Origin: a virus | Length of the DNA stretch: 21,779 nucleotides | IMG/VR virus record: IMGVR_UViG_3300047089_000076 | Coordinates: 1 to 21,779 of that record | Reading direction: 5' to 3' (one strand) | Shown: piece after piece, positions 4,987-13,317 of the stretch | How positions within the stretch are numbered: the stretch's first letter is position 1 | How the letters are laid out: each line of letters begins with the position of its first letter | Notes under the pieces: generated by a model | Database searches by the model: none | Told to the model about the DNA's origin: nothing | The model's input: the letters and a program-made list of their open reading frames with translations, nothing else | Position numbers and translations under genes: made by a program

Positions 4987-6498
4987 ATGACTTCGCGCGT
5001 CCAGAGCCAGCATCTCACCACCACCGGCACTACTCCCGGCAGCGGTACTCGCCCGCCCGGCGAACTCTGGGTGAACTTTGCGGACTACCACTTCGGCATG
5101 ATCAATCAGGCGCAGGCCCCGGTCGATCTCCTGCCCATCCACGTCTATGTCCCGACCGCTGGTTACGGCACCGGCGACATCGTGGTGAACGGCACTCAGC
5201 TCCTGCAAGCGCGCACGCCACTCACGCCGCATTCCTTCGTCGCCGGTGAGTGGAACGTCTTCCAGACCACCGTGCAGCTCGATGCGCGCTACGACGCCCG
5301 CTATGACGCGCGCTACCTCCAGCTCACTGGTGGAACCTTAACCGGTTTGCTCACCTTATCTGGTCCACCCACCGCGCCACTGCACGCGGCAACGAAGGCT
5401 TACGCCGAGAGCTACGCCGACACCCACGGCGTGCAGACATTCAACGGTCGCAGCGGCGCGATCACGCTCACCACGGCGGATGTGACGGCAGTTGCCGATG
5501 CAACCTACGTCAACGTGGCCGGCGACACGATCACTGGTTCTCTCACTATCAACGGCAATCAGTTTGTCGGCGGCGTGATGAATGTCGGGGGCAACGGCAT
5601 CCTCTACAGTGCTCTTGGTCCCAACCGCTTCTCGTTCGGCTGGGATGGCTCGTTCATTGTCGGACACGTCGAGGGCAGCGGTTATGTGGCGCAACTAGCA
5701 AATGTCGGCTGGGTGCAGGGCAACTATTACGCGGCCGGCACATCGGACGCGCGCTACCTATACAAGACCGGGGACGCCTGCACTGGCAGTCTGAACGTCA
5801 ACGGCAACCTCAGCACAGAGGGTACGCTCTACGGCCAGATCGGTCGCGTCTTGTCGGTCAACGCGGGGAACAACCCTGCCATGGCCATGTATAATACCAC
5901 CGTCAGCTACGCAGGCGGCTTTTGGATCGCCGGAGCTGGCGCCGTTCAGTTCGGCGCTACCGATGGTAATGGCGTTCCGGTCAGCACTCACGGCTATCTC
6001 AGCGCCAGCACCTTGGGGTTCTATACGAGTGGTTCGGTCTCGATTGCGATCAATGGCGGCGCGAACACACTCTGCTACGGCAATGCTTCAAACTTCAACG
6101 TGCCCGGCAATGCGTGGAAGCCCGGCGGCGGTGTATGGGCTGACAGTTCAGATGCCCGCATCAAGACCGTGATCGATGGCTATTACAGCGGGCTGGATGC
6201 CATCCTGGCGCTGCGTCCGGTGCGCTACACGTTCAAGAATAACTGGCATCGTGGCGACGATATGCCGCCGCCTCACGAGGGCGTGGACGGCGCGCAGGAG
6301 TTCATCGGCCTTGTCGCGCAGGAAGCCGAGATCCCGATGCCCGAGATGGTCAGCAAGATCAGCGCCATCATTGACGGCGTGCCGGTAGACGATCTGCGCA
6401 CGCTCGATATGACTGCGCTGTCGCTGGCGCTGATCAACGCCGTCAAGGAGCTGGCCCAGCGCATTGCTATTCTGGAGGCCAAAGGGGACACGCCATGA
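4987..6498 (+). CDS. Tail fibre/spike with C-terminal S74 autoprocessing chaperone
   Basis: A 503-aa fibre. Residues 100-110 are a DARYDARYDARY repeat followed by LQLTGGTLTGLLTLSG, a collar/tail-repeat pattern. Residues 149-167 hold a copy of the FNxRxGAxTL module found twice in the fibre gene at 1788-2702. The central region is Gly/Asn-rich beta sequence. From residue 388 the protein is a peptidase S74 (intramolecular chaperone) domain: SDARIK gives the Ser388/Lys393 dyad, then ILALRPVRYTF, EFIGLVAQE and a C-terminal helix LALINAVKELAQRIAILEAK. In this family the chaperone drives trimerisation and then cuts itself off before the catalytic Ser, leaving a mature fibre of about 387 residues. 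This is the best candidate for the main receptor-binding or depolymerase protein, though no enzymatic domain is recognised. Confidence 0.88.
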   Translation: MTSRVQSQHLTTTGTTPGSGTRPPGELWVNFADYHFGMINQAQAPVDLLPIHVYVPTAGYGTGDIVVNGTQLLQARTPLTPHSFVAGEWNVFQTTVQLDARYDARYDARYLQLTGGTLTGLLTLSGPPTAPLHAATKAYAESYADTHGVQTFNGRSGAITLTTADVTAVADATYVNVAGDTITGSLTINGNQFVGGVMNVGGNGILYSALGPNRFSFGWDGSFIVGHVEGSGYVAQLANVGWVQGNYYAAGTSDARYLYKTGDACTGSLNVNGNLSTEGTLYGQIGRVLSVNAGNNPAMAMYNTTVSYAGGFWIAGAGAVQFGATDGNGVPVSTHGYLSASTLGFYTSGSVSIAINGGANTLCYGNASNFNVPGNAWKPGGGVWADSSDARIKTVIDGYYSGLDAILALRPVRYTFKNNWHRGDDMPPPHEGVDGAQEFIGLVAQEAEIPMPEMVSKISAIIDGVPVDDLRTLDMTALSLALINAVKELAQRIAILEAKGDTP

Positions 6499-6950
6499 GC
6501 GATACCGTCATCGACAACCCACCCTATGAGCCGCCGCCTGGTGGCGCCGATGTCGCGCCTCCCGTGGTCCTTGAGGACCCGCCGGACCCGGAGGTGGTGG
6601 CGCTGATCGAGGACACCGCGTTGCCGCCCGATCCGCGTGATCCGCCGGATGAGCCGATGGCACCGATTGATCCGCCCACCAACGTCGATGCCCCGGCGAT
6701 CCTGGGCGTCGGCACGGTGGGGGAGGTCCTGTCCTGCACGATGGGCAACTGGACCGGCGAGCCGACCTCGTATGTCTATCAGTGGGCGACCGATGGGCCG
6801 GTCGGTGTCGGTGGCGACACCTACCTCATCGCCGACACCGATGCCGGCAAGGACATCACCTGCACGGTCACTGCCTTCAACGCGGCGGGTTCGGCTGAGA
6901 GCACGTCGAATGCTGTCTCCGTGCCGCCCGCCGCGGTGAGGGAAGCGTGA
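6495..6950 (+). CDS. Pro-rich protein with Ig-like domain
   Basis: A 151-aa protein whose ATG overlaps the preceding stop as ATGA, implying translational coupling to the S74 fibre. Residues 1-65 are acidic and proline-rich (PPDPRDPPDEPMAP), probably an extended linker. Residues 66-145 look like a bacterial/phage Ig-like fold: VGEVLSCTMGNWTGEP, YVYQW, then DAGKDITCTVTAFNAAGSAESTSNAV. The two cysteines (in LSCTM and ITCTV) sit where Ig-type domains often place a bridge. Ig-like domains on phage virions commonly give weak binding to cell-surface or environmental carbohydrates; that role here is inference. Confidence 0.6.
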   Translation: MSDTVIDNPPYEPPPGGADVAPPVVLEDPPDPEVVALIEDTALPPDPRDPPDEPMAPIDPPTNVDAPAILGVGTVGEVLSCTMGNWTGEPTSYVYQWATDGPVGVGGDTYLIADTDAGKDITCTVTAFNAAGSAESTSNAVSVPPAAVREA

Positions 6951-7339
6951 TGGCGCAGCCCCCTGTCGCCTTTGCGCCGCCGAAGACTGTGCCGGTGTTC
7001 CGCGTGCAGAAGTCTGCTTGGCGCGACTACCTGCTGAGCGGCGGTGCCATGCAGATCGCCGTCAGCCAGCCGCCGGCGCAGCTCGCCACCGCGGCGACCA
7101 CGGTCACCGGGCAGCTCTACGTCGACGCCAGCCTGAACCTCTACCCGCCCACGGTGACCGTGGATCTGATCCAGCGTGGCGCGGTGAAAGCCACCAACAC
7201 GCCGGCCGTTACCACGACCGGTGTCTTCAGCACGACGTTCCCGGCGAACACGCTCGCTGCCGCGAACACCGCCACTGCCAGGGTGTCCTGCACCTTGCCG
7301 GTGGCGACGGCAACTTCGGCCAGTTTCAACGTCACTTAA
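6950..7339 (+). CDS. Small phage protein with Ig-like/beta-sandwich fold
   Basis: About 129 aa, starting at the ATG that overlaps the previous TGA (TGATG); an in-frame GTG at 6947 would add one residue. The N-terminus (about 30 residues) is Pro-rich and basic, with FRVQKSAWRDYLLSGG. Residues 45-129 alternate hydrophobic and Thr residues, with TVTGQLYVDASLNLYPPTVTVDL ... GVFSTTFPAN ... NTATARVSCT, which reads like one bacterial Ig-like domain. It sits between another Ig-like protein and a Pro-rich repeat protein, so it is likely a virion decoration or tail-accessory protein. No enzymatic motif is seen. Confidence 0.55.
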   Translation: MAQPPVAFAPPKTVPVFRVQKSAWRDYLLSGGAMQIAVSQPPAQLATAATTVTGQLYVDASLNLYPPTVTVDLIQRGAVKATNTPAVTTTGVFSTTFPANTLAAANTATARVSCTLPVATATSASFNVT

Positions 7340-7379: not shown

Positions 7380-7955
7380 ATGCCGTATGTATCTGGGTTC
7401 CTTCGCACGCGTAGCGGTGGCGGCGAGATTGACAACACGTTGCCTGGCGGTGGCGAGATCGACAACACGCTGCCGGGTGGCGGCGGCTGGATCGACAACT
7501 CGCTGCCACCGCCTCCGGGCCTCTGGCCGCCGCCTGCGACCATCTGGCCGCCCATCGCACTGCCGCCGGATTATCCAATGCCGCCTGGCGCAATCTGGCC
7601 GCCGGTGCATCCGCCTGTCGCGGGCATGCCGTTGCCAGGGGGACCGCCTGGACACGCTGGCACGCCGCTGCCGCCAGCACCGGGCCGTCCAGACGCGGGC
7701 TTGCCACCAGCACCAGCGCGTCCTGACGCGGGCTTGCCGCCCGGAGGTGTCGCTGGTCATCCGCTGCCAACACCACCGGGTCACGCCCCCTCGGGCAAGT
7801 TCCTTGTGGCAATCGTGGCGGCGGCAGCCGGTGGTCTCAAGGTGATTGGTTACACTGTCGTTGATCCTGGCTTGGCTGTCGGCATGCCGTTGCCAACGCC
7901 TCCCGTCACGGTCACGCCGCCGATCCAGCCGACGCCGGAACCGCGTCGGGGCTAA
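7380..7955 (+). CDS. Pro/Gly-rich repeat protein of phage type
   Basis: A 191-aa low-complexity protein starting at ATG 7380, with AGGAG at 7370-7374. Order: MPYVSGFLRTR; GGGEIDNTLP twice and a variant GGGGWIDNSLP; a segment of PPGLWPPP / IWPP units; two PAPxRPDAGLP repeats; then a short hydrophobic segment, FLVAIVAAAAGGLKVIGYTVVD, and a PTPP-rich tail. Similar Pro-rich proteins with IDNTLP and WPP units occur in many uncultured tailed phages, next to tail or lysis genes, without known function. The segment FLVAIVAAAAGG might be a beta strand or weak membrane contact. The open frame extends upstream to 7221, but the ribosome binding site and the overlap with the previous gene favour 7380. Confidence 0.6.
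   Translation: MPYVSGFLRTRSGGGEIDNTLPGGGEIDNTLPGGGGWIDNSLPPPPGLWPPPATIWPPIALPPDYPMPPGAIWPPVHPPVAGMPLPGGPPGHAGTPLPPAPGRPDAGLPPAPARPDAGLPPGGVAGHPLPTPPGHAPSGKFLVAIVAAAAGGLKVIGYTVVDPGLAVGMPLPTPPVTVTPPIQPTPEPRRG
7416..7508 (+). repeat. 30-bp tandem coding repeats (GGGEIDNTLP)
   Basis: Three consecutive units at 7416-7445, 7446-7475 and 7476-7508 encode GGGEIDNTLP, GGGEIDNTLP and GGGGWIDNSLP. The third is three bases longer and more diverged. Synonymous changes between the first two show they are not brand-new copies. Confidence 0.8.
7674..7739 (+). repeat. 33-bp tandem coding repeats (PAPxRPDAGLP)
   Basis: Two adjacent units, 7674-7706 and 7707-7739, encode PAPGRPDAGLP and PAPARPDAGLP with a few base differences. 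They lie inside the Pro-rich protein and extend its linker-like character. Confidence 0.75.
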
Positions 7956-7981: not shown

Positions 7982-8668
7982 ATGCTGAAAACTGTCCTGC
8001 TGGCCGGTATCGCGAGTGTTCTCGCGATACCGGCATCCGCCACCCTGATCCTCGATGAGAGCGTCAATGGCGGCGGCTTCACGACGCTCTGCTCTGGCGG
8101 CCCGGCGTGCAGTCCCGGCGTCACCTTTACCGATCCGGCCGGTATCACGTTCCTGATCCTGGGTGCGTCTTCCAATGCTCCTGGGACGCCAACCAACGGG
8201 GACGTGACACAAGCCGCCGTGCGCGTCACCAACAGCTCCGGCGCGACGCAATCGATCGTGCTGCGCGCAGGGGATACCAACTTCACCGCGCCCTCGGGCG
8301 CCACCACCCTCAGCAACAACATCAGCGGCACGGTGATCACTGGCAGCGCCGCTAATCTCTTTTCGTCCACCGCGTGCGCTAATCCGTCCGACGCGCAGAA
8401 CAGCTGCGCTGGCGCGTTCACCACTCCGGTGATCAACAGCAACATCACGCAGAGCAACAGCAGTGGCGCGAACAGCAACAACCTGTCGATCGCCAACCTG
8501 CTTGCGCCGTTCTCGCTCACCGAGGCGCTTAACTTCACGCTCGGCGCGGGGAGTGTGATCACGTTCTCTGCCAGCGCGGATGTGGTGCCGGCGGGCGAAC
8601 CGCTGGGCCTGGCGGTGCTTGGTGTCGGGCTGCTGGGTCTCGGCATGGTGCGTTCGGTACGACGGTGA
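7982..8668 (+). CDS. Exported protein with PEP-CTERM-like sorting signal
   Basis: A 228-aa protein. Residues 1-20 form a signal peptide (Lys3, hydrophobic core, cleavage expected after ASA). The mature body is rich in Ser, Thr, Asn and Gly, with two cysteine pairs (CSGGPAC at about 37-43 and CANPSDAQNSC), as in many exosortase substrates. The last 28 residues are tripartite: VPAGEP (202-207), a hydrophobic stretch LGLAVLGVGLLGLGMV, and a basic end RSVRR. This resembles the PEP-CTERM pattern (VPxPEPxxLALLGxGLLGLG...RRR) with E206-P207 kept. Known family members are processed by host exosortase and sent to the envelope or extracellular matrix. An AAGGGGA site lies 11 bases before ATG. Its stop overlaps the terL start. 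It is probably a moron-like gene altering the host surface; a structural role is possible. Confidence 0.65.
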   Translation: MLKTVLLAGIASVLAIPASATLILDESVNGGGFTTLCSGGPACSPGVTFTDPAGITFLILGASSNAPGTPTNGDVTQAAVRVTNSSGATQSIVLRAGDTNFTAPSGATTLSNNISGTVITGSAANLFSSTACANPSDAQNSCAGAFTTPVINSNITQSNSSGANSNNLSIANLLAPFSLTEALNFTLGAGSVITFSASADVVPAGEPLGLAVLGVGLLGLGMVRSVRR

Positions 8669-10239
8669 CACCCGACGTTGTCCGCTACGAGGCTGTCCTC
8701 AAGCGGTTGATCGCGGTCACCGAGGCGGAAACCTCGATGCTCGCGTTCACCCGCTTGATGATGCCCTCGCCGCGCTACCCCGACGATCCCGACCACTCGC
8801 GCTACGAGGTGCAGCGGTTCCATCAGGTCATCTGCGCGGCCCTGGAAGAACTTGCGGCTGGCCGGATGCGGCGGCTGATCATCAATCTGCCGCCGCGGCA
8901 CGGTAAAACCCAGCTCGCGTCCAAGATGTTCATCGCCTGGTTCGCGGGCCTGCACCCTGAACTCTCCACCATCTTCGGCACCTATAACGAGAAGTTCTCC
9001 CAGGACATCGGCCGCGCGGTGCGCGACATCATGGTCTCGCCGCCCTATGCCCAGGTGTTCCCGAACACGGTCCTCAAGGACGATAGCAAAGCCTCTGACC
9101 GTCTGGAGACCACTCAGGGCGGCATTCTCGCCTTTGTGGGTCGCGGCGGCACCACCACGGGGCGCGGCGGCGATCTCCTGTGCATCGATGACCCGATCAA
9201 GGACCGCATGGAGGCGGACAGCCCGACCATCCGGGATACCCTCTGGACGTGGTTCACCCAGGTCATCGCGTCTCGCCTGATGGACGAGACAGGCCGGATC
9301 ATGCTGATCCAGACGCGCTGGCATCAGGACGATCTGATCGGCCGCCTGACCGACCCGCACAACTCATACTATGACCCCGAGGAAGCGGCCGAGTGGCACA
9401 TCATCGATCTGCCGGCGCTGGCGTTCGATGACGGCAAGGACCCCCTCCATCGCGAAGTGGACGAACCGCTCTGGCCTGGCCGCTTCGGCAAGACCTATCT
9501 GCACGCGCTCAGGCGCCGGGACCACCGCGGGTTCAGCGCGCTCTATCAGGGCCGGCCGTCACCCGCCGGCGGCACGTTCTTCTCGGTGGACTGGCTGCAC
9601 ACCTACCGGCCGAACGAACTGCCCTCGAACTTGCGTTGCTACGCGGCGTCCGATCACGCTGTCGCCCTCAAGCAGGGCAGCGATAAGACCTGCCTCATGG
9701 TGATCGGCGTCGACAAGGACGACACGATCTGGGTGCTGCCCGACTGCGTCTGGCGACAGATGACCGCGGAACAGACCACCGAGAGCATGCTGCGCATGAT
9801 GAAGCTGCATAAGCCTTTGTTCTGGTGGGCTGAGCGCAGCCACATTTCTAAGTCGATCGGTCCGTTCCTGCGCAAGCGCATGCTGGAGACGCACACGTTT
9901 TGCAGCCTGATCGAGATGCAGCCCATCGCGGACAAGCAGACCCGGGCGCAGTCGATCCAGGGCCGCATGAGCATGGGCAAACTCAGATTTCCCGAACGCG
10001 CGCCCTGGTGGCCGGCGGCGCGCGACCAGATGCTGAAGTTCCCCTACGACGCGCACGACGATTTCGTCGACACGCTGGCCTATATCGGCCTCGGCCTCAC
10101 GCTGCAGGTCAGCGCGTCAGCCGAGCGCCGGGACAAGGACGATGACAAGCCGGACGAACACACGTTTGGCTGGCTCAAGATGCAGCGCGACCAGGCAGAG
10201 CGCAGCGTTCGTCTGGGCTTCGCGTCAGGAGGCTGGTGA
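8665..10239 (+). CDS. terL: Terminase large subunit
   Basis: A 524-aa DNA-packaging motor protein. The GTG start overlaps the previous stop (GTGA). The ATPase half shows Walker A LPPRHGKT (75-82), Walker B LLCIDDP (171-177) and the coupling motif QTRWHQDDL (216-224). The nuclease half has an RNase H-like arrangement of acids: ASD330, WWAE390 and HDDFVD (464-469). TerL docks on the portal, translocates DNA with ATP and cuts concatemers. It is followed by the portal gene, with one small gene between. No small terminase is recognisable in the window; it may lie upstream of position 1 or be one of the unidentified small proteins. Length and motif spacing are normal for the Terminase_6 type. Confidence 0.96.
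   Translation: MTPDVVRYEAVLKRLIAVTEAETSMLAFTRLMMPSPRYPDDPDHSRYEVQRFHQVICAALEELAAGRMRRLIINLPPRHGKTQLASKMFIAWFAGLHPELSTIFGTYNEKFSQDIGRAVRDIMVSPPYAQVFPNTVLKDDSKASDRLETTQGGILAFVGRGGTTTGRGGDLLCIDDPIKDRMEADSPTIRDTLWTWFTQVIASRLMDETGRIMLIQTRWHQDDLIGRLTDPHNSYYDPEEAAEWHIIDLPALAFDDGKDPLHREVDEPLWPGRFGKTYLHALRRRDHRGFSALYQGRPSPAGGTFFSVDWLHTYRPNELPSNLRCYAASDHAVALKQGSDKTCLMVIGVDKDDTIWVLPDCVWRQMTAEQTTESMLRMMKLHKPLFWWAERSHISKSIGPFLRKRMLETHTFCSLIEMQPIADKQTRAQSIQGRMSMGKLRFPERAPWWPAARDQMLKFPYDAHDDFVDTLAYIGLGLTLQVSASAERRDKDDDKPDEHTFGWLKMQRDQAERSVRLGFASGGW
10227..10232 (+). promoter_or_regulatory. Consensus ribosome binding site for the 54-aa membrane protein
   Basis: AGGAGG lies eight bases before ATG 10241. It is the best Shine-Dalgarno match I noticed in the window and fixes the start of a gene that would otherwise be missed inside a longer open frame beginning at 10142. 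Confidence 0.7.
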
Positions 10240-10405: not shown

Positions 10406-12759
10406 TGGGACCACCTACGGGACCACCGCCCGGCATGGGACCACCGGGTATGGGTAGTCCCGCGAACAGCATGCAGCTCGATCCGACCCCGGCGACAGTC
10501 TCCCAGGTCCCCGGCACGGGTCAGCCCACCTACGTCCAACGTGATCGCCCGGTCCCGGACGACCCGCGGCGCAAGCTGGTCAACCGCTGGCAGGACAAGG
10601 TCAAGCGTGCCAAGCGGCACTGGCGCACGCAGTTCCGCCGCATGCGCGAGAACATGGAGTTCTGTGAGGGCCGTCAGTGGCCCGAGATGGCCAAGACCGA
10701 GAAGCGTGACGATCGCTATGTCGCGAACATCTGCATCCGCCACGTCTTGCAGCGCACCGCGGAGCTTTACCCGAACAACCCGACGATGCAGGCCAAGACC
10801 AAGCCGCGGCTGTTGGCGCAGACCTGGGACGGCACGCAGATGCAGCTGCAGCAGGCACAACAGTCGGCCTTGATGGCCTCGCAATCCGGCCTTCCGCCCG
10901 ATCCGCACAGCATGGCGATCCTGCAGGACGCCGCGATGATCAAGCAGTTCGACGAGATGATGGATCGCGTCGGACGCACGCTCGAACTGATGTATGAATA
11001 CAACATCGCGGAGCAGACCCACTCGTTCAAACAGTCTATGAAGATGTCGATCCGCCGCGCTATCATCACGGGGGTCGGCTACGTCAAATTAGGTTTTCAT
11101 CGGGCCATGCGGATGGCCCCCGAGATCGAGAACCGCATCGCCGATATGTCCGAGCGCCTGGCCAATATCGAACGCCTGGCTGCCGACCTCTCGGACAAGG
11201 AGATCCAGCCTGACAGCGCGGACGCCGAAGAACTCCGCATGGCGATCAAGAGCCTCGCCTCCGAGGGCCAGCTGGTGGTCCGCGAGGGGCTGACTTTCGA
11301 CTATCCCGACAGCACGGCGATCATCCCGGACGTGCGGTGCCGGACCCTTCGTGGCTTCCTGGGCGCCGACTGGGTGGCGCAGGAATACCTGCTCAGCCCG
11401 GACGAGATCGAAGAAATCTACATGGTCGACGTGGGGACCGGGTACACGGCGTACAACGAGGACGGCAACTCGACCGGGTATGAACCGGCGGCCGAGCAGC
11501 ACTATTACGCCGGCTATGGTGGGACCAATGACGACGGCGGTGGTCCCGCGATGCCCTGGGCCTGCGTCTGGGAGATCTGGTCCCGTAAGGACGCCACGGT
11601 CTACGTGGTGTGCGACGGCTACCCGGACTTCCTGCAGGAGCCGACCATGCCGGATGCCGAGACCACGCGGTTCTGGCCGTGGTTCTCGATCGTCTTGAAC
11701 GAGGGCTACGACGAGAAGTCGCTCTACCCGCAATCCGACATCGATCTGATCCGCGACATGCAGCTGGAACTCAACCGCTCGCGCCAGGGCTTACGCGAGC
11801 ATCGTCGCGCCAATCGCCCGAAGACCGCGGTCGCCGCGGGCCTCCTGGAGGCGCCGGACCTGGAGAAGCTGCGCACCCACCCGGCGAACGCGCTTCTGGA
11901 ACTTAACGCCCTGGCGCCCGGCCAAAAGATCGAGGATGTCTTGCAGGTCATCAAAATGCCGCCCATCGATAGCGCGGTCTACGACACGGCTCCGGTGTTC
12001 GAGGATGTCTTGCGCGTCCTGGGCAGCGACCAGGCGGATCAGGGGACCACGTCTGACGCCACGGCGACCGAGGTGTCGGTCGCGCAGTTCAGTCAGAACA
12101 CCGACCTCAGCTCCACGATCGACGACATCAACGACATGATGACCGAGCTGGCGCAGGCGGCCTCTCAGCTCCTGGTGCTCAACGTCAGCCAGGACACCGC
12201 GATCAAGGTGGTGGGACCAGGGGCGGTGTGGCCCATGCTGAATAAGCAGATGGTCGCTGACAACGTCTGGCTGGAAGTCAACATCGGCGCCAACGGGCCG
12301 CCCAACCGGCAGGAGGATGTCCAGGTCCTCACCCAGCTGGTGCCGATCCTGCAGCGCATCCCTGGGATCAATCCCGAGTGGCTGGCCAGACAACTGATCC
12401 GCCGCATGGGTGATGACATCGATCTGACCGAGGCGTTCGCCGAGGGCACGCCCAGCATCGAGGCGATCAACCAGATGATGGCGCGGCCTCCGGCGCCGCC
12501 TGGGGCGCCTGGTCCTGGGGCGGGTCCCGGTCCCACTGGTGCCGGCAGAGGGCCTCCACGGCCTCCTGGGCCGGGCCAGGACCCCAATGCGCAGGGGCCG
12601 GTCGGCATGACCAACGCGATGACCGGTCCGGGCACCCAGGGACCTCTCGGCCCCCACGTTCCGCCGCTGCAGGTCTACGGTAACAACGGCAACCGTCCGG
12701 GGCCGGGAACCGGGCCACCGCGCGGCTTTATGACGGGCGGCGGACCCCCGACGCCGTGA
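10393..12759 (+). CDS. Portal protein
   Basis: A 788-aa protein directly downstream of terL. Residues 1-22 are Met/Gly/Pro-rich (MGPPTGPPPGMGPPGMG), then a basic helix RRKLVNRWQDKVKRAKRHWRTQFRRMRENMEFCEGRQW (about 59-96). The central part carries the expected alpha/beta portal core with a long helical section, DIDLIRDMQLELNRSRQGLREHRRANRP, and the C-terminus from about 697 is again Gly/Pro-rich. The size fits P22/N4-class portals (about 725-763 aa), clearly larger than T7's 536. Twelve copies would form the DNA entry vertex. The start is uncertain: ATG 10393 gives the longest product, while ATG 10402 overlaps the previous stop as ATGA and fits coupling. Neither has a good ribosome binding site. 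Confidence 0.88.
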   Translation: MSGMMGPPTGPPPGMGPPGMGSPANSMQLDPTPATVSQVPGTGQPTYVQRDRPVPDDPRRKLVNRWQDKVKRAKRHWRTQFRRMRENMEFCEGRQWPEMAKTEKRDDRYVANICIRHVLQRTAELYPNNPTMQAKTKPRLLAQTWDGTQMQLQQAQQSALMASQSGLPPDPHSMAILQDAAMIKQFDEMMDRVGRTLELMYEYNIAEQTHSFKQSMKMSIRRAIITGVGYVKLGFHRAMRMAPEIENRIADMSERLANIERLAADLSDKEIQPDSADAEELRMAIKSLASEGQLVVREGLTFDYPDSTAIIPDVRCRTLRGFLGADWVAQEYLLSPDEIEEIYMVDVGTGYTAYNEDGNSTGYEPAAEQHYYAGYGGTNDDGGGPAMPWACVWEIWSRKDATVYVVCDGYPDFLQEPTMPDAETTRFWPWFSIVLNEGYDEKSLYPQSDIDLIRDMQLELNRSRQGLREHRRANRPKTAVAAGLLEAPDLEKLRTHPANALLELNALAPGQKIEDVLQVIKMPPIDSAVYDTAPVFEDVLRVLGSDQADQGTTSDATATEVSVAQFSQNTDLSSTIDDINDMMTELAQAASQLLVLNVSQDTAIKVVGPGAVWPMLNKQMVADNVWLEVNIGANGPPNRQEDVQVLTQLVPILQRIPGINPEWLARQLIRRMGDDIDLTEAFAEGTPSIEAINQMMARPPAPPGAPGPGAGPGPTGAGRGPPRPPGPGQDPNAQGPVGMTNAMTGPGTQGPLGPHVPPLQVYGNNGNRPGPGTGPPRGFMTGGGPPTP

Positions 12760-13142
12760 GTTATCTCGCGACCGAGCCGCATGTTCACGCCGGCAAGTCG
12801 ATCGAGACTGGGCACTGCGTCGCTTATGTCCAGAAGGCTGCCGGAGCGCCACCCACGCAGTACTGGCGCCGTGGCGAGCGGGTGCGTGACGCTGAGGACG
12901 TGCCCACCGGTACCGCCATCGCCACTTTCTCACAACGTGGTCGATACGAGAACCGCATGGATGGGTCCTCGCACGCGGCGATCCTGGTGTTCCGCGAGGA
13001 CCAGGGGCTGACCTGTTGGGACCAGTGGAAGGGCAAGCTCGTGAGCCAGCGTTTGATCCGCTACACGGGTGGCGTGGGACCAGCCTGCGATGACGGGGAC
13101 CAGTATTACATAATCGAGCCGACCGATAATGACCGAAGCTGA
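12756..13142 (+). CDS. BPSL0067-like putative peptidoglycan hydrolase (lysin candidate)
   Basis: A 128-aa protein starting at a GTG that overlaps the portal stop (GTGA). The sequence follows the BPSL0067 family plan: GHCVAYVQKAAGAPPTQYWRRGERVR (residues 19-44), GTAIATF (52-58), a RYENRMDGSSHAAILVF stretch (63-79), then WDQWKGK and a C-terminal RLIRYTGG. Cys21 and His73 lie where NlpC/P60/CHAP-type cysteine peptidases keep their catalytic pair. Family members are single-domain proteins of roughly this size found in phages and proteobacteria. With a one-segment membrane protein next, it is the best endolysin candidate in the window. It has no signal peptide, so release would need a holin. Alternatively it could be a virion-associated murein hydrolase. 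Confidence 0.7.
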   Translation: MSYLATEPHVHAGKSIETGHCVAYVQKAAGAPPTQYWRRGERVRDAEDVPTGTAIATFSQRGRYENRMDGSSHAAILVFREDQGLTCWDQWKGKLVSQRLIRYTGGVGPACDDGDQYYIIEPTDNDRS

Positions 13143-13317
13143 AGCCAAGGGCATCGTTGGACTGAGCAAGCAGCTTGTTACGGCGTTGCCTGCTCAGTTC
13201 CTTCTGTTGCTACTGATCAACATCCTTCTGGTTGGCGGCTTCGTCTGGCACATGGATAGCCAGTTGGATGCGCGTGAGCGCGTGCTGATCAAGCTGGTCG
13301 AAACCTGTGGCAAGTGA
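13129..13317 (+). CDS. One-segment small membrane protein, holin candidate
   Basis: A 62-aa protein overlapping the lysin candidate by 14 bases. Residues 1-18 are polar (MTEAEAKGIVGLSKQLVT), then LPAQFLLLLLINILLVGGFVWHM forms a single strong transmembrane helix. The C-terminal 20 residues are charged (DSQLDARERVLIKLVETCGK) with one Cys near the end. The pattern ALPAQFL..LINxL recurs in small phage membrane proteins. Its position directly after a putative peptidoglycan hydrolase suggests a holin or holin regulator, but no experimentally defined holin family is recognisable. Confidence 0.7.
   Translation: MTEAEAKGIVGLSKQLVTALPAQFLLLLLINILLVGGFVWHMDSQLDARERVLIKLVETCGK

Follow-up and report, generated by a model that had tools for sequence, protein, structure and literature searches.

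Sequence comparisons indicate that P0001, the gene directly preceding the terminase large subunit gene (terL) in the DNA analysed here, belongs to the mobile accessory genes (‘morons’) carried by tailed phages of soil, and that its predicted exported product derives from PEP-CTERM proteins. This reading draws on a homologue which passes a PEP-CTERM model, a bacterial homologue with a canonical tail, recombination between tails and bodies, canonical copies in other phages and the lack of exosortase in the phage records tested.

The window, i.e. the whole stretch of DNA analysed, comprises 21,779 bases and constitutes the entire virus record, which may be a fragment. P0001 lies among genes for portal, capsid, adaptor and tail proteins, and the relevant features are the following:

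7380..7955, + strand: Pro-rich protein with IDN(T/S)LPG repeats, encoded directly upstream of P0001
7982..8668, + strand: P0001, predicted PEP-CTERM-type exported protein of 228 aa (open reading frame and translation; conservation in IMG/VR; signature of purifying selection)
7982..8041, + strand: signal peptide, residues 1-20, AxA-type site between ASA and T (read from the sequence; A(N/Q)A before T in homologues)
8042..8584, + strand: body, residues ~21-201, all-beta, with invariant Cys 37, 43, 132 and 142 (alignment; AlphaFold2 model; matches resembling carbohydrate-binding modules, Z 7-9)
8585..8665, + strand: tail, residues 202-228, consisting of VPAGEP, a hydrophobic helix and basic RSVRR (hhalign; model helix 208-227)
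8665..10239, + strand: terminase large subunit, overlapping the P0001 stop by 4 nt (phrog_38, E 4e-104; PF03237 and PF17289)

The reading frame (7982-8668, + strand, 228 aa) opens with an ATG preceded, about 10 nt 5′, by a Shine-Dalgarno-like AGGGGA. Several elements proposed in the initial annotation are borne out by the translation. The N-terminus, MLKTVLLAGIASVLAIPASA followed by T, is a signal peptide by inspection and by conservation in the homologues, with the claimed cut after ASA20. The two claimed cysteine pairs correspond to C37, C43, C132 and C142 of the body, which are invariant in six aligned members. The C-terminus runs V202-P-A-G-E-P207, then LGLAVLGVGLLGLGMV, then RSVRR, so that the hydrophobic helix followed by a basic cluster, typical of PEP-CTERM proteins, is present. 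Likewise, the stop codon (TGA, 8666-8668) overlaps the GTG start of terL at 8665, as claimed. Further downstream (12756-13317), a protein of 128 aa, with Cys and His close to the N-terminus, is overlapped by a 62-aa one-helix protein; the two could be an endolysin-holin pair, and neither matches any family.

P0001 homologues occur in nine IMG/VR contigs at 61-100% identity. The four cysteines and the string SADVVPAGEP never vary among the six members aligned, and dN/dS values of ~0.14-0.34 between diverged copies indicate purifying selection. A regular expression for the tail, run on every stop-to-stop open reading frame of 93 loci, retrieved only the P0001 family and one canonical PEP-CTERM protein. 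Together, the homologues, the conserved residues, the dN/dS values and the selectivity of the tail pattern confirm that the reading frame is real and beyond chance. The P0001-type gene sits beside different portal or terminase genes in the window, in L003, in L004/L007 and in L005. Among ~80 relatives of the window TerL, it is restricted to the window and to two near-copies of it, L001 and L002, while L055 carries another PEP-CTERM protein; the usual terL neighbours in this set are genes like those at 6495-6950 and 6947-7339. Cultured phages gave no match, whether queried with P0001 or with a canonical PEP-CTERM protein of phages.

The PEP-CTERM/exosortase-EpsH system (TIGR02595, PF07589; Haft 2006, PMC1569441) shares with P0001 a signal peptide, a body without known domain, the Glu-Pro pair, the helix, the basic end and a modular tail found on unrelated bodies; in addition, P0001 is homologous to chromosomal members of the Acetobacteraceae. 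Unlike the known members, P0001 is phage-encoded within a structural-gene operon, reads GEP after a two-residue insertion and remains below the model cut-offs. The founding description reports Pro-Glu-Pro as near-invariant in the family (PMC1569441), whereas P0001 keeps Glu-Pro and inserts Ala-Gly after the first proline. Gly-Glu-Pro thus replaces Pro-Glu-Pro, and since its acceptance by an exosortase is putative, we describe P0001 as a variant rather than a full PEP-CTERM protein.

The interpretation given in the initial annotation is partly supported. Its central proposal, that the phage encodes an exported protein ending in a variant PEP-CTERM tail, holds up, and most of the checks suggested with it come out in its favour. 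P0001 itself falls below every CTERM cut-off and has no Pfam or PHROGs match either, while the homologue L005, 61% identical to P0001 and with the same VPAGEP tail, passes TIGR02595 with 17.9 bits (cut-off 16). VPAGEP formally fits the VPxxxP-CTERM motif (TIGR04143), but this class was rejected on score (9.7 bits, cut-off 30). When the P0001 group was compared with canonical phage PEP-CTERM proteins by hhalign, the tails fell in register (98.8%); only the C-terminal 65 columns align, with VPAGEP against VP--EP. VPAGEP tails were found in phages only, in five P0001 populations and one L098 population. None terminates a cellular protein in 299 Acetobacteraceae genomes, and matches in three of these genomes were discarded as internal chance matches. 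Host recognition of the VPAGEP form is consequently without precedent.

The tail behaves as a module, and tail and body recombine independently. Between the window protein and L007, the tails are 89% and the bodies 65% identical (p 1e-4), whereas L005 and L007 share 88% of the body and 59% of the tail (p 2e-6). L003 and the window protein are 91% identical in the body and 37% in the signal peptide. Furthermore, L098, L101 and L134 place a P0001-type signal peptide and a VPAGEP tail around an unrelated body, so that the tail is common to the P0001 and L098 bodies, as expected of PEP-CTERM modules; L102 is a partial copy. Homologues of the L098 body, e.g. in L055 and L164, end in VPEP. A small lipoprotein-like gene (CGRSFRSCAAYIAILGPTT) lies at 9085-9297 of L098 and also in L101, L134, L004 and L007, its end overlapping the start of the PEP-CTERM gene; it was rejected as part of the module, having no counterpart in the window.

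Finding a PEP-CTERM protein in a phage late operon had been called unusual, a view to be corrected in the light of IMG/VR. A strict VPEP pattern scan gave 67 further IMG/VR contigs, 66 of them with a matching canonical VPEP-tail open reading frame. Homologues of terL, portal or capsid genes lie on the fetched stretch in 23 of the 66, the safe core of a set which may include proviral or mis-called host DNA; 45 have at least two genes in common with reference phages. Both canonical phage proteins tested pass Pfam PF07589, and L146 and L164, two phages with PEP-CTERM genes, have tail genes in common with the window (up to 80%). Of 43 canonical PEP-CTERM genes in the main body family, 24 immediately follow a Pro-rich IDNTLPG gene of the type found at 7380-7955 of the window. 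Such IDN(T/S)LPG genes, which have no Pfam or PHROG match, also precede PEP-CTERM genes in different phage lineages at 3268-3777 of L315 and 4739-5320 of L093. Three virus-called contigs (L172, 3952-5534; L186, 559-1966; L159, 3063-4515) each hold two adjacent PEP-CTERM-type frames, which are either phage arrays or host DNA called viral.

Comparison with bacterial genomes shows that P0001 is homologous to cellular PEP-CTERM proteins and suggests that it derives from host versions. A P0001 profile search of 299 Acetobacteraceae genomes returned a full-length homologue in genome G074 (E 1e-33), the closest bacterial one found (blastp: 36% over 193 aa, E 3e-27). This protein is chromosomal by its neighbours, ends in VPEPGSLALLGTALIAIGAVGWVRRRRA, with the canonical VPEPGSLALLG, and its genome has an exosortase. 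Sabulicella was matched by the profile at 3.5e-13. At E <= 1e-6, matches are enriched in this family: they occurred in 9 of 299 Acetobacteraceae genomes, but in a sample drawn across the class in 2 of 385, including the centre genome itself (Fisher p 0.012). When genomes were scanned with the main phage body family, homologues of full or nearly full length came up in Acetobacteraceae only (Sabulicella, Roseococcus and a Rhodopila MAG, 42-45%), and its other matches cover little beyond the tail. In the tree, the P0001 clade lies beside the G074 protein with weak support (71/79), and a second phage family groups with Sabulicella proteins (96/97). These placements suggest that the phage families were acquired separately, although long branches make this unsure.

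Exosortase is present in 75 of 200 sampled Acetobacteraceae genomes and in nine of ten selected genomes with matches; none was detected in 22 phage records tested. The search for a host exosortase, proposed alongside the original claim, gave a positive answer for the probable host lineage, while the host of the window phage itself is one we infer. The soil phages carrying P0001 probably infect Acetobacteraceae. The window TerL has no close prophage in this family (best match 39%), and the closest named phage TerL belongs to a Microcystis phage (55%). An Acetobacteraceae chromosome contains a prophage, L312 (G118:C1:2710500-2730499), which is kin to the PEP-CTERM-bearing soil phages; it matches L098-type phages in TerL (57%) and portal (61%), and the stretch read contains no PEP-CTERM gene.

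The AlphaFold2 model of P0001, of modest confidence (pLDDT 66), shows strands within residues 21-203 and a helix at 208-227. The best structural matches of the body are a surface glycan-binding protein (SGBP-B), CBM61 and an adhesin domain (Z 8.4-9.0); 7kwc reaches Z 9.0 and many carbohydrate-binding modules 7-8.5, values of 7-9 being common and middling. A PDB sequence search with P0001 gave no match. The matches are suggestive: the predicted body weakly resembles carbohydrate-binding beta-sandwiches, and glycan would be its most likely ligand.

PEP-CTERM proteins have been linked to exopolysaccharide (PMC1569441), and this link, taken with the structural matches, underlies our reading of P0001 as a glycan-binding protein exported and displayed late in infection. 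P0001 would be made together with the late genes, as its operon position suggests, and exported by the Sec pathway. The C-terminal helix would then hold it in the inner membrane with the basic end inside, until a host exosortase receives it and, presumably by cleavage of the VPAGEP form, frees it or passes it on to the outer surface or the exopolysaccharide. There the beta-sandwich body would most likely bind glycan and alter the host surface, with the outcome that sister phages are excluded or that envelope and matrix bearing receptors do not trap the progeny. Use of the host sorting system is probable; surface change, a block to re-infection and release from biofilm are roles that we infer. 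We argue the proposed benefit from the parallel of other phage envelope proteins, among them the T5 lipoprotein Llp, a phage-made exclusion protein acting on receptors (PMC9586334); the role may be similar, but the anchor and sorting route of P0001 differ. If expressed late, the protein has little time to be displayed at the surface, which counts against the scheme. We nevertheless lean slightly towards it as a whole: a PEP-CTERM-derived protein, sent to the host surface by the host exosortase for late glycan-binding display, leading to superinfection exclusion or matrix change. More tentatively, and on balance we doubt it, VPAGEP could be an edited, phage-specific signal by which many soil phages hijack or jam the host exosortase and deliver interchangeable bodies to the surface or matrix.

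A related but unlikely account makes P0001 a decoy, recognised at VPAGEP yet left uncut, that jams the host exosortase and blocks the export of matrix proteins late in infection. The confinement of VPAGEP to phages, always as a two-residue insertion with E-P and V-P kept, is what one would expect of it. Canonical phage versions coexist with VPAGEP, which implies that the variant is selected or tolerated; yet most phage copies are canonical VPEP, and a decoy needs no conserved four-cysteine body under purifying selection. The neighbourhood of the gene invites another explanation, in which P0001 is an inner-membrane-anchored periplasmic protein acting in lysis or envelope disruption with small membrane proteins and a lipoprotein. 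In L098 and its relatives the PEP-CTERM gene follows the small lipoprotein-like gene with overlapping ends, the latter has a weak match to an Rz-like spanin family (E 0.066), and small one-helix proteins are encoded near the PEP-CTERM gene in G313 and L003. However, the spanin match is not significant, the window lacks a relative of the lipoprotein, most close TerL relatives lack the gene, and the homologues of P0001 are ordinary chromosomal PEP-CTERM proteins. We regard a lysis role as quite improbable.

The position among structural genes, together with tail-fibre domains in the Foldseek list, would also suit a virion or tail-associated protein whose C-terminal membrane helix is ordinary and whose likeness to PEP-CTERM is convergent. 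Such convergence is very hard to reconcile with the signal peptide, the canonical tail of the cellular homologue, the TIGR02595 score of L005 and the exchange of the tail with a body that has VPEP-ending relatives. Finally, the presence of P0001 in few of the ~80 TerL relatives fits an accessory gene and might also reflect a captured host gene in decay, useless to the phage. A dN/dS of 0.14-0.34 and copies without stops in at least three phage backgrounds disfavour decay through the signal of selection, and we give it hardly any credence. Late display of a glycan-binding protein thus stays our preferred interpretation.

Our literature search on PEP-CTERM and exosortase in phages, prophages and viruses found no paper on phage PEP-CTERM proteins among the open-licence papers searched. 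In the nearest report, the gene transfers counted in virus contigs from hot springs include 13 proteins of the TIGR03118 family, which has a putative exosortase-interaction domain (PMC11003980); like P0001, they are virus-contig proteins with an exosortase-interaction-type tail. They belong to another family, however, and are given as a count only, with no phage module or mechanism described.

In many environmental bacteria, PEP-CTERM proteins link surface proteins with exopolysaccharide; to our knowledge, the role of most of them has not been established. Dozens of soil phages with recombining PEP-CTERM tails and bodies point to the PEP-CTERM surface layer as a target of phage selection. Because similar proteins are found in dozens of other soil phages, phages seem to remodel the outer surface of their hosts repeatedly, as a strategy that has gone largely unnoticed. 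P0001 offers, through VPAGEP, a testable handle on exosortase specificity, and likewise a handle on how phages act on the matrix and on superinfection in soil.
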